From Hyaloscypha bicolor E (taxonomy: Eukaryota > Ascomycota > Leotiomycetes > Helotiales > Hyaloscyphaceae), in contig NW_020194546.1 of the NCBI RefSeq assembly GCF_002865645.1, positions 62,001-126,000 of the forward strand: 64,000 bases of DNA, in the 5' to 3' direction. Shown in pieces: positions 1,528 to 4,357 of this stretch. The first letter of the stretch is position 1. The number at the start of each line of letters is the position of its first letter. The translations under genes were made by a program, and so were the position numbers. Below the pieces are notes generated by a model. The model searched no databases. It worked only from the letters and a program-made list of their open reading frames with translations, and was not told where the DNA came from.

Positions 1528-2254
1528 GTTGCTTCTGGATGTGGGGCAATGCTCTCGAGGGGATCGAGTGCCTTTTGAGCCCGAGCCCCAGGCTCCCACC
1601 TTGGATCTGGTCAGCCTTGTGGACCACGCAGTCGCGGATTCACTGGCTTGAAAGTTATGCAACGTTACCGACCAGTTACATGGCTGGTATTTGAATTGAC
1701 AGAGGTCAGCTAAAGCTTGGCATCTCGAGCTAATTGTGTGACTGGCAATTTGTGTTCATGGCGTTTCAAAGGTGGGAGGAGGTTCAATTGAGCTGCCCCA
1801 CTAGGCGGATCGCCGCTTTTGAGATGTCTTCTTGGGCTAGGTTTCTTCCCTATGCAGCTGCAGAGGTCAAAGTCTTCACAAGCTCCATCTGAACAGAAGA
1901 ACTGAACCTTGGATGCTACGAATTTGATTTGATAAGACAGAGCTTACTTTATTTTTTCCATGGATAAAACTCTGGACCGTTGCTGGGACAGGACTGGTAG
2001 CAAGGACTCGCTTAGCTAAAAGAGGCAAAACTCGCTTTCTCGCCCACAGCTTTCAACCCCCAATATCACAAATTTCAAAAAACCATTGTAAAACAATTTC
2101 TTTCGCAGTTGTTCTACAAAAAAGCTTCAAAAATTGTTGCAAAACAGCTGTAAAAGCAAAATATGTATCAGAAACCTCAAAAGAAGAAACCCCTGAGATG
2201 AAGTTCGCTGAGAGAGTTAATCCTTAATTCAAATAATTTGATTTAATTGAACTT
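1528..2254. other. intergenic, no gene seen
   Basis: This is the upstream side of the oxidoreductase. Around 2050-2165 it is A/T-rich with several loosely repeated short TTGT/AAAAC-type words. No open frame with coding character and no transposon ends were found. Confidence 0.5.
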
Positions 2255-2406
2255 ACACCTAGACGGGACTCGAACCCGCAATCTTTGCCAATTTCCAGAA
2301 TAAGAACACGAATATTCAGCCGGAAAGCAACGCTCCAAGGATGTTAGTATGGGATGAAAGCTTGGCGTTCAGATGAAACTTACCCTTACCATTAGGCCAC
2401 CAGGCC
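2255..2406 (-). tRNA. tRNA-Arg(CCG)-like gene with anticodon intron and a second, D-arm insertion
   Basis: Read on the minus strand, the locus folds as a tRNA once two segments are removed. Acceptor 5' strand GGCCTGG (2406-2400), D arm TGGCCTAATGGTAAGG...C (2399-2384 plus 2332), anticodon stem TTGCT/GGCAA (2330-2326 and 2289-2285), loop TTCCGG + T with anticodon CCG at 2323-2321, variable AGATT, T arm GCGGG-TTCGAGT-CCCGT, acceptor 3' strand CTAGGTG, discriminator T. A 29-nt intron (2319-2291) lies one base 3' of the anticodon, the canonical place, and its CTGGAA pairs with the TTCCGG of the loop. A second 51-nt segment (2383-2333) interrupts the D stem. The removed-intron molecule is 72 nt. 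A box and B box (GGTTCGAGTCC) are intact, but pair 1-72 is G.G, two acceptor pairs are G.U, and no T-run of four or more follows closely, so it may be a pseudogene. Confidence 0.7.
2333..2383 (-). other. spliceosomal-type intron-like insertion inside the tRNA D arm
   Basis: The 51-nt insert begins GTAAGT, has TACTAAC 10 nt before its end and ends GGAG. Removing it exactly restores the D-stem pairing GCCT/AGGC. These are the consensus 5' splice site, branch site and 3' splice site of fungal mRNA introns, and the length matches the mRNA introns elsewhere in this window. It is not a tRNA-endonuclease intron, because it is not in the anticodon loop. Confidence 0.65.
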
Positions 2407-4357
2407 AGTTTTCACTGGTCTTTGAACCGGAAAATCGCTTATTTGGCCCTATACTGCTCACCCATTTTTGGAATGTTTCGGCCAATCACATGCTTCCATT
2501 TCCTATTGTCCAGTCAAGGCGAAAGTGAGCTCTAGCATGTAAAATTTGGACCCCTTGTCAATCATAGTCCTAAATTGTGATATCGAAATTTACTGTTGCC
2601 TTTTCTAGCTTTTTAACCACGTGTTCATGAAATTCCTTGACTGTTATCTTAAAGCATCTGCGGAAAGACGTCTTGAAAGTGATCTATTGTGCCCTAAAAA
2701 TTAGAAGGAATGCTAGTTATGTGTTCAACGCTGCACTTCTATCAATAGATTTGGCTCTAAGGGTTCTGAAATTTGAAATCCTTTCTTTGTGTGGTTGTGC
2801 TTTGTTGTGATATTGGAAAAAATAATTTGTCCTCAATGCAGCCTGACAACTTCAAGTGAAGGAAGGACAAAGCAAGGAGTAGGTGAGCTCTTATTCACGT
2901 TGATAAGCATTCCTGCAGATGCACCAACGGTTTCTTTTCGGTCTCCTGCCGGTTCAATGTGACCATTTGGACCGCTATAGCGTGGCCAGGCTTCACGCGT
3001 GATCCAGAGCTGTCTTCATAATGCGTGTCCTCAAGGCGGGAGATCCTTCTTCAGCGTGCTCATCATAATTTCTTCAGTCGCGTTGGAGCTTACCCAAAGA
3101 CTGTCTTGATTGAGTTGTGCTTGTGGAAAAAGCCTCATGCCTCCGGAAAGGTCCTTTGACTATTGAAATTGGCTGGTGTTGCAGAAGTTTAAAACCGAAT
3201 TTATTAGTGGCTTTTTTTTGGCTCGCCTTCACCATGGGCCCTAATTCTTAAGACTTTGCCTTTCGAATCTAGATGAAATCCGCCGTCAATTATCAAAATC
3301 TTCGATTTGGGGTGAAATTTGCTGTCAATCATTAATAGATTTCCTCCTTGATTTGAATGTACCCACCCTATTCCGGGGACCTACCTTCACCCGACGTCTG
3401 CAAACCCTCTTCATCCAGCACCAAATCATTACCGACTACGGTCTCTGCCCGTAATCCATGTTATAGGATATGTCTGCTGACACCGCAGACAGCCTTGTAG
3501 AATGTTCCCTGCTTGTAATAAAGGGAAATCTTCTCCTTGAAGCTTTACAATGTACACATCCTCAAATTGAACACATCAATTAGTATCATAGAAATGAATC
3601 GGATCGTAAAGTGAAATTGTTTTGATTTACATGTCAGTTCAACTCGGCCTGCAGCTCTATAAATCGCGGGAACGTATTATTACACTGCTGTCAATATGGC
3701 ATCATGCCGAAAGTTTTGGGTATTTGGTCAAGCCGGTGCACTTTCTAGCTGACACTTCGATAACCTAAGTGTCCACACGTATGTTGGCATGGAACTTGAG
3801 AGCAAGAACAATCTCGAATCTGAATAGGTCTTGAGAGGTACAGATGATTCACGTGGAGCAATGAAGCCAAGACCGTGATCAAGTTGTAGGCATTTGGAAA
3901 GACAGATCACATCTCTGAAGACTGTGAAGCAGTATCGCAAGATTTCGTTTTGAGAGAATCAATGAATTAAGGTGGTAAAGAATAAGAACATAGAACATAA
4001 AGCAGAGCTTTTTGTACACATATGCAAAAAGAGAAGAAACAAGCTAAGTGAGCCAATTGTGTTATGAAAAACCTTCATCTACTAACTAACTACACCACTC
4101 TCGATTTTGACTTGTCTTCAGATACTTTAAGGACATATATGCTTTGATAAAGAAAGTTATCAAGGGATCAAACGGTTCAAAAACCACCCTTCGTACCGTG
4201 CACGTGCCCAAGCTGCGTTCGAGATAGGTCATTTGCCTTGTATAGAGTCATGATCGGCAGCTCTCGATCAGGAGGGAGAGGAGGTGAAGCCATGTCACTG
4301 GGCACTTGGATCTACCAAAATTTGGAAAAATGAACACCATTGGCCGGATGAAGGGTA
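2407..4357. other. intergenic, no gene seen
   Basis: About 1.9 kb with no open frame of coding character on either strand. No terminal inverted repeats or tandem repeats were noticed. Confidence 0.45.

Follow-up and report, generated by a model that had tools for sequence, protein, structure and literature searches.

We asked whether a nuclear tRNA gene in the window, the whole stretch of 64,000 nt analysed here (contig C16, positions 62001-126000, of an 82-Mb assembly in 76 contigs), is interrupted by an mRNA-type intron in addition to an ordinary tRNA intron, as an earlier note had proposed. One protein of the window has its best named relative, at 80% identity, in Stipitochalara longipes, and another relative reaches 91%; together with frames recognised by eye, this indicates that the host is probably a filamentous ascomycete in or near Helotiales. 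ARAGORN in its standard form and Rfam at the gathering score called no tRNA in the window. With introns allowed, ARAGORN called only a poor tRNA-Arg(TCT) over 2255-2406 when 2333-2383 was kept, whereas removal of this segment afforded tRNA-Arg(CCG), in which the 4-bp D stem is perfect and an intron of 29 nt occupies 2291-2319, in agreement with the earlier claim that taking out a 51-nt D-stem insert restores the fold. The 29-nt segment lies at the 37/38 site and the anticodon-intron helix is present in the predicted fold, the features of a canonical tRNA intron, as the note had also described.

The ends of the gene were then compared with those given before, 2255 and 2406. The 5' end at 2406 stood, and an intact A box and B box are read from there on the minus strand. 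A 3' end at 2255, however, would leave a G1.G72 mismatch and T73. The sequence at this end reads exon ...CTAGGT / GTAAGT...ATTAAC...CTCTCAG / exon CG, and cutting out 2208-2256 yields a G1-C72 pair and G73, the usual arginine discriminator, with a change in fold energy from -23.6 to -26.5 kcal/mol. The gene thus ends at 2206, and the two inserted segments recognised earlier, both of which hold, are accompanied by a third, a 49-nt mRNA-type intron that had been missed. After the three removals, the sequence features of a functional tRNA gene are present, namely a cloverleaf with G73, intact boxes and an upstream RATAAG (Table 1). Judged from the sequence, 2206-2406 (minus strand) is very probably a working tRNA-Arg(CCG) gene that contains an ordinary tRNA intron and two spliceosomal introns of U2 type. 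The main reading of the note, an mRNA-type intron inside a nuclear tRNA, is supported, and it extends to two such introns here and to 11 further genes.

Table 1. Parts of the tRNA-Arg(CCG) gene in the window, and sites of mRNA-type introns in the interrupted tRNA genes of the genome (sites numbered by hand from the joined sequences)
Feature	Window positions	Strand	Intron site (tRNA numbering)	Basis
Whole tRNA-Arg(CCG) gene with three introns; the mature 3' end, G73, is 2206	2206..2406	minus	24/25, 71/72	ARAGORN, folding, joining
Exon 1: 5' strand of the acceptor stem, A box and D arm up to position 24	2384..2406	minus		exact joining
Spliceosomal-type intron 1, 51 nt, GTAAGT...GAG, in the D stem	2333..2383	minus	24/25	ARAGORN, blind cut scan
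Branch-site-like TACTAAC in intron 1; CTAAC core ends 10 nt before the intron end	2343..2349	minus		sequence reading
Exon 2a: positions 25 to 37, anticodon CCG	2320..2332	minus		joining, predicted fold
Canonical tRNA intron, 29 nt, after position 37, with anticodon-intron pairing	2291..2319	minus	37/38	ARAGORN, predicted fold
Exon 2b: positions 38 to 71, T arm, B box at 2266-2276	2257..2290	minus		joining
Spliceosomal-type intron 2, 49 nt, GTAAGT...CAG, in the acceptor stem	2208..2256	minus	71/72	by eye, then script
Branch-site-like ATTAAC in intron 2; TTAAC ends 8 nt before the intron end	2216..2221	minus		sequence reading
Start of last exon: C72 and discriminator G73, then 3' trailer	2206..2207	minus		joining
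Upstream AAATAAGCG element	2436..2444	minus		sequence reading
TATA-like TATAGGG upstream of the gene	2447-2453	minus		sequence reading
First T4 run, 23 nt beyond the corrected 3' end; may be a weak Pol III terminator	2179..2182	minus		
Arg-TCT			7/8	
Arg-TCG (L016)			7/8 (GC-AG) and 10/11 (GT-AG), with a 3-nt exon TGG between	
Glu-CTC, first gene			6/7	
Glu-CTC, another gene			4/5	
Glu-TTC			D loop	
His-GTG (L046)			12/13	
Gln-TTG			D loop	
Gln-CTG			7/8, 13/14	
Ala-AGC			51/52	
Thr-AGT			53/54	
Leu-AAG (L130)			26/27	

The part that chance may play in such joins was assessed with a blind scan, in which single cuts of 40-65 nt were made without regard to splice signals (some 5,000 per locus, estimated from the script ranges) at the 68 loci with T-stem-supported B boxes and no good uncut tRNA. 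For tRNA-Arg(CCG), the top score was common to two cuts, one of which was exactly the GTAAGT...GAG segment, TACTAAC playing no part in the choice. A score of at least 50 was reached in 15/68 loci, and at six of these 15 the top-scoring cuts included GT...AG (the window gene, L003, L022, L102, L130 and L160). L102, with 41 little informative tied cuts in a flexible D loop, was left out of the chance estimate; the remaining 14 loci gave 35 tied top cuts, for which about 0.14 GT...AG loci are expected at 1/256 per cut, and five were seen. In all five, a branch-like motif precedes the intron end by 8-11 nt. Since branch sites were not used by the scan, we place weight on its result together with these motifs. 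The tRNA-Leu gene L130 was discovered in this way. Nine loci with scores of at least 50 had no GT...AG cut in the top position. In L046 and L096, such a cut follows two points below; L024 is excluded by the rule against cuts in the T arm, and six belong to a family with inserts in the anticodon arm. A search with the splice consensus found seven loci versus one for the mirrored consensus (of 78 loci; 541 and 423 tests), and a stricter version gave 9 matches in 80 tests versus 1 in 35 mirrored tests, and per candidate both contrasts are modest; the single mirror match of the stricter version was L074, a member of the anticodon-insert family.

A genome-wide survey then showed how far the phenomenon extends. 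The GGTTCGANTCC list of the genome comprised 138 places, 136 of which were read as distinct sites, and the relaxed B boxes in all of the collected loci amounted to 157 sites, 78 of them with a T stem. In all, 21 tRNA genes were resolved, a set biased towards genes with a findable T arm, and 12 of them carry a total of 15 mRNA-type introns of 48-55 nt, located in the acceptor, D and T arms and at 26/27. For Gln-CTG, Ala-AGC and Thr-AGT, the introns were identified by eye and their only check was exact joining, while the first intron of Arg-TCG, also read by eye, was recovered by the script once GC donors were permitted. Site 7/8 is used in three genes (Arg-TCT, Arg-TCG and Gln-CTG) and may be a preferred or shared insertion site. 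The other nine genes, Ala-TGC, Lys-CTT, two Gly-GCC, Val-TAC, Phe-GAA, two Asp-GTC and Pro-CGG, have an anticodon intron only or none. Among the 21 there is no Asn, Cys, Ile, Met, Ser, Trp or Tyr gene, and the anticodon pattern of initiator Met gave one match in the genome, which was not tRNA-like. In the interrupted genes, the exons form good helices once the introns are removed, although His-GTG, the sole histidine tRNA seen in the genome, keeps a U.U mismatch at 27-43 according to a by-hand reading.

We compared the interrupted genes with each other and with the rest of the genome. The acceptor, D arm and T arm of Arg-CCG and Arg-TCG align, and their four introns are all at different places; the three Glu genes, as well as the two Gln genes, likewise have introns at differing sites. 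Sister genes thus serve as intron-free sites for each other, and the joins agree. Intron-free relatives were also sought elsewhere. A T-arm pattern gave 24 loci in viral contigs, 22 of them with an ARAGORN tRNA and none recognised as fungal, and a D-arm pattern gave 30 loci in bacterial and archaeal genomes, all titled bacteria; neither set entered the comparison.

These comparisons bear on the possibility that the interrupted genes are decaying pseudogenes, that is, that mRNA-type introns or their lookalikes have come to lie in redundant copies while intact genes supply the tRNA. In the accessible parts of one account, eukaryotic tRNA genes with insertions at unusual positions are indeed regarded as pseudogenes, the insertion being found mostly in a single member of a set of many synonymous genes (PMC4090602). 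Ten of the 12 interrupted tRNAs, all but Glu-CTC of L160 and Leu-AAG of L130, were used in spliced form as queries for intact copies. The search with spliced Arg-CCG, a check already proposed in the note, found only its own 3' exon in the genome, where the T-arm pattern occurs once; no intact near copy was thus detected, and the decayed relic that had been offered as an alternative is disfavoured. The nine further spliced tRNAs, searched as a concatenate, also gave no intact near copy in the genome, their own genes being matched exon by exon, together with one degenerate Glu-CTC-like copy (C54:486972), which speaks for decay. Because L160, the second Glu-CTC gene, was missed by the same search, only near copies are within its reach and divergent intact genes are possible; this limit and the incompleteness of the tRNA list also favour the pseudogene explanation. 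Nevertheless, none of the ten searched tRNAs has an intact near copy, the exons keep good helices, and introns of this kind occur in 12 of the 21 resolved genes, among them the single His tRNA encountered. Furthermore, decay would not preserve GT, branch and AG at exact boundaries, or the flanking signals. Taken together, these observations make pseudogenes an unlikely explanation and favour working genes with mRNA-type introns.

The introns themselves were examined for the machinery that may remove them. The donors are GT in 14 of the 15 tRNA introns and GC in one (GCAAGT), all 15 acceptors are AG, and a branch-like CTRAY or TTAAC lies 8-12 nt before the end in 14/15, being absent in the second intron of Gln-CTG; most of the introns were found via such signals, by search or by eye, but for the five blind-scan introns the signals are independent of selection. 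At the sequence level, precise removal restores the tRNA fold, as expected of U2-type introns. The first intron of the window gene ends in GAG, a rare 3' splice site. As a host reference, a strict scan of the window for mRNA introns with 60 open codons on each side gave 21 real versus 0 mirrored cases, and this set was used; 40 open codons on each side gave 37 versus 12, while the plain consensus (17 versus 17) and a loose coding-frame version (32 versus 26) were uninformative. The 21 mRNA-like introns were chosen by splice signals and open frames, and only their length and T content are informative; their 44-72 nt encompass the 48-55 nt of the tRNA introns. In chaperonin genes, a GT...AG segment of 46-50 nt was the best or tied-best join in 6/7 gaps.

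Bulge-helix-bulge splicing was considered for the D-stem and acceptor introns and was rejected, since none of the 15 introns has a central helix of four pairs, the best case being the three pairs of window intron 1. A broader proposal is that the inserts are non-canonical tRNA introns cut by the tRNA endonuclease, or by an archaeal-like variant, with GT...AG as a coincidence. Non-canonical introns in D and T arms are indeed present in cryptophyte and chlorarachniophyte nucleomorphs, and many such introns of the Guillardia theta nucleomorph have no defined bulge-helix-bulge, as stated in the available portions of two papers (PMC4090602, PMC3978253). However, the lack of a four-pair central helix in the bulge-helix-bulge register, and the presence of GT, branch and AG in all five introns that were found without splice signals, render this proposal very unlikely relative to spliceosomal introns.

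We also analysed the flanks of the genes for signs of the transcribing polymerase. RATAAG is present 24-65 nt upstream in 10/12 interrupted and 8/9 uninterrupted genes (18/21), against 2% of random window stretches, and T5 occurs within about 60 nt downstream of 11/12 interrupted genes, against 7% of random stretches; the exception is the Arg-CCG gene of the window, where T4 comes 23 nt and T5 72 nt after the gene. TTTT is a Pol III stop signal. It occurs in none of the 16 tRNA and U6 introns versus 7/21 mRNA-like introns (Fisher one-sided p=0.011), although its absence is weaker against shuffles (P=0.05, 15 introns), and only one of the 12 interrupted genes contains TTTT at all, Gln-TTG, in the anticodon loop outside the intron. 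The A box is split by introns in Arg-TCG, His-GTG and Gln-CTG, and the B box in Thr-AGT. Such introns should weaken an ordinary internal Pol III promoter, suggesting that the upstream element carries part of the promoter work. A further, very unlikely alternative is that the tRNA exons lie within longer Pol II transcripts that are spliced like mRNA before the tRNA is cut out: it would be favoured by the hampered internal promoters, but the upstream RATAAG and downstream T runs are common to interrupted and intact genes, and the introns are free of TTTT.

A second class of small RNA gene in this genome has an intron of the same type. The U6 gene L162 (C36:940325-940429) contains a 51-nt GTACGT...CACTAAC...TAG intron behind the 5' hairpin GTTCTTCGGAAC; its Rfam match (83.6 bits) begins inside the intron, and the spliced U6 form is a by-hand reading. 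Intron-containing U6 precursors that are spliced are described for fission yeast in the accessible part of a further paper (PMC10484740). Given the U6 intron and this precedent, spliceosomal removal from Pol III transcripts is the simplest reading. Three further U6-like genes (L163-L165) have diverged 5' halves, and RNase P RNA gave no match in the genome search. It is thus highly likely that the spliceosome takes the D-stem and acceptor introns, as introns of the U2 type, out of Pol III transcripts, while the best explanation leaves the anticodon introns to the tRNA endonuclease. The 3-nt internal exon of Arg-TCG, awkward for a spliceosome, counts against this explanation, as do the GAG end of window intron 1, the missing branch motif in the second Gln-CTG intron and the U.U mismatch of His-GTG.

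On the basis of these features, a maturation pathway involving two machines can be proposed. Pol III would transcribe the Arg-CCG precursor, probably aided by the upstream TATA/AAATAAG element, and stop at the downstream T run. The D-stem and acceptor-stem introns would be taken out by the spliceosome in the nucleus, and this step would precede end trimming, because a complete acceptor stem for RNase P and RNase Z is absent earlier. The anticodon intron would be excised by the tRNA splicing endonuclease. Eleven or more other tRNA genes of this fungus would follow the same scheme. Pol III transcription, spliceosomal splicing, the order of the steps and the function of the tRNA are all what we infer from the genome sequence.

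The introns were finally compared with known systems. Tani and Ohshima (1989, 1991) reportedly described mRNA-type introns in the U6 snRNA genes of Schizosaccharomyces pombe. As in that case, a U2-type intron would reside in a short Pol III transcript, and the U6 gene of the present genome has one too; here, however, the introns reside in tRNA genes, and a single gene has as many as two of the spliceosomal type beside a tRNA intron. Bhattacharya et al. (2000) are said to have found spliceosomal introns in ascomycete rDNA, which are likewise mRNA-type introns in non-coding genes outside Pol II, but in rRNA transcribed by Pol I, whereas tRNA genes are concerned here. The canonical eukaryotic introns at 37/38 are present in Arg-CCG (2291-2319) and in other tRNA genes of this genome, and the D-stem and acceptor introns are unlike them in place and signals. 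The tRNA introns of nucleomorphs, red algae and archaea share with the present ones several sites in the tRNA body besides 37/38, but in the available portions of the sources they are tied, with exceptions, to the bulge-helix-bulge and the endonuclease; those of the Guillardia theta nucleomorph are 3-24 nt long, and GT...branch...AG signals are not mentioned in these portions (PMC4090602, PMC3978253).

The earlier remark that no described case in a nuclear tRNA was known agrees with our search of the open-access literature, which leaves most subscription journals and bioRxiv uncovered and gave no report of spliceosomal introns in tRNA genes. What appears new is thus the class of host gene and the scale, the introns themselves fitting U2-type sequence features. 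The data are likely to reflect an invasion of the nuclear tRNA gene set by spliceosomal introns in this fungal lineage, in which 12 of the 21 resolved genes would depend on the spliceosome, translation would depend on splicing through its tRNAs, Pol III transcripts would be routine substrates of the spliceosome, and the low tRNA counts of related fungi would partly be misses of the gene finders. According to the accessible part of a comparative study, three mycorrhizal Helotiales have 50-52 tRNA genes, with 51 in Hyaloscypha hepaticicola, while lifestyle averages range from 82 (mycorrhiza) to 169 (phytopathogens), and missed interrupted genes could account for part of the low published Helotiales counts (PMC11678538). 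The usual division assigns the splicing of tRNAs to protein enzymes and that of mRNAs to the spliceosome, and one gene here seems to need both. If so, the spliceosome would be able to act on structured precursors that are made by Pol III and are about 200 nt long, perhaps including a 3-nt internal exon. The order of nuclear tRNA processing would then become testable, and the genome would offer a means to study the entry of introns into non-coding genes.

Several further tRNA-like loci were kept out of the set of 21 genes. L116 shows no U33, and L025, which ARAGORN called as Ser, has no clear anticodon stem by eye. The degenerate Glu-CTC-like copy L196 (C54:486700-487250) has in its T loop a GTAAGG...TAG segment containing TTTT and is probably a pseudogene. 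The anticodon-insert family (L005, L017, L042, L065 at two places, L066, L074, L097, L105 and L109), also excluded, has good acceptor, D and T arms in most members and long inserts in the anticodon arm (107-166 nt in the nine that were folded), with U33 mostly not visible; the best cuts are not GT...AG where scored, and some members were named by ARAGORN or by score (L005 Phe, L017 Pro, L097 CAA). Lastly, 14 of the 28 Rfam tRNA loci (L010-L015, L019-L021, L023 and L026-L029; for example, G000 C7:454, C55:385, C27:1288 and C43:1443) are copies of a degenerate tRNA-like repeat (GGCCYGATAGTATAATGG...) that scores above the Rfam tRNA cut-off and was likewise excluded. At least seven copies of this repeat are no farther than about 12 kb from the start of a contig, and it is perhaps subtelomeric.
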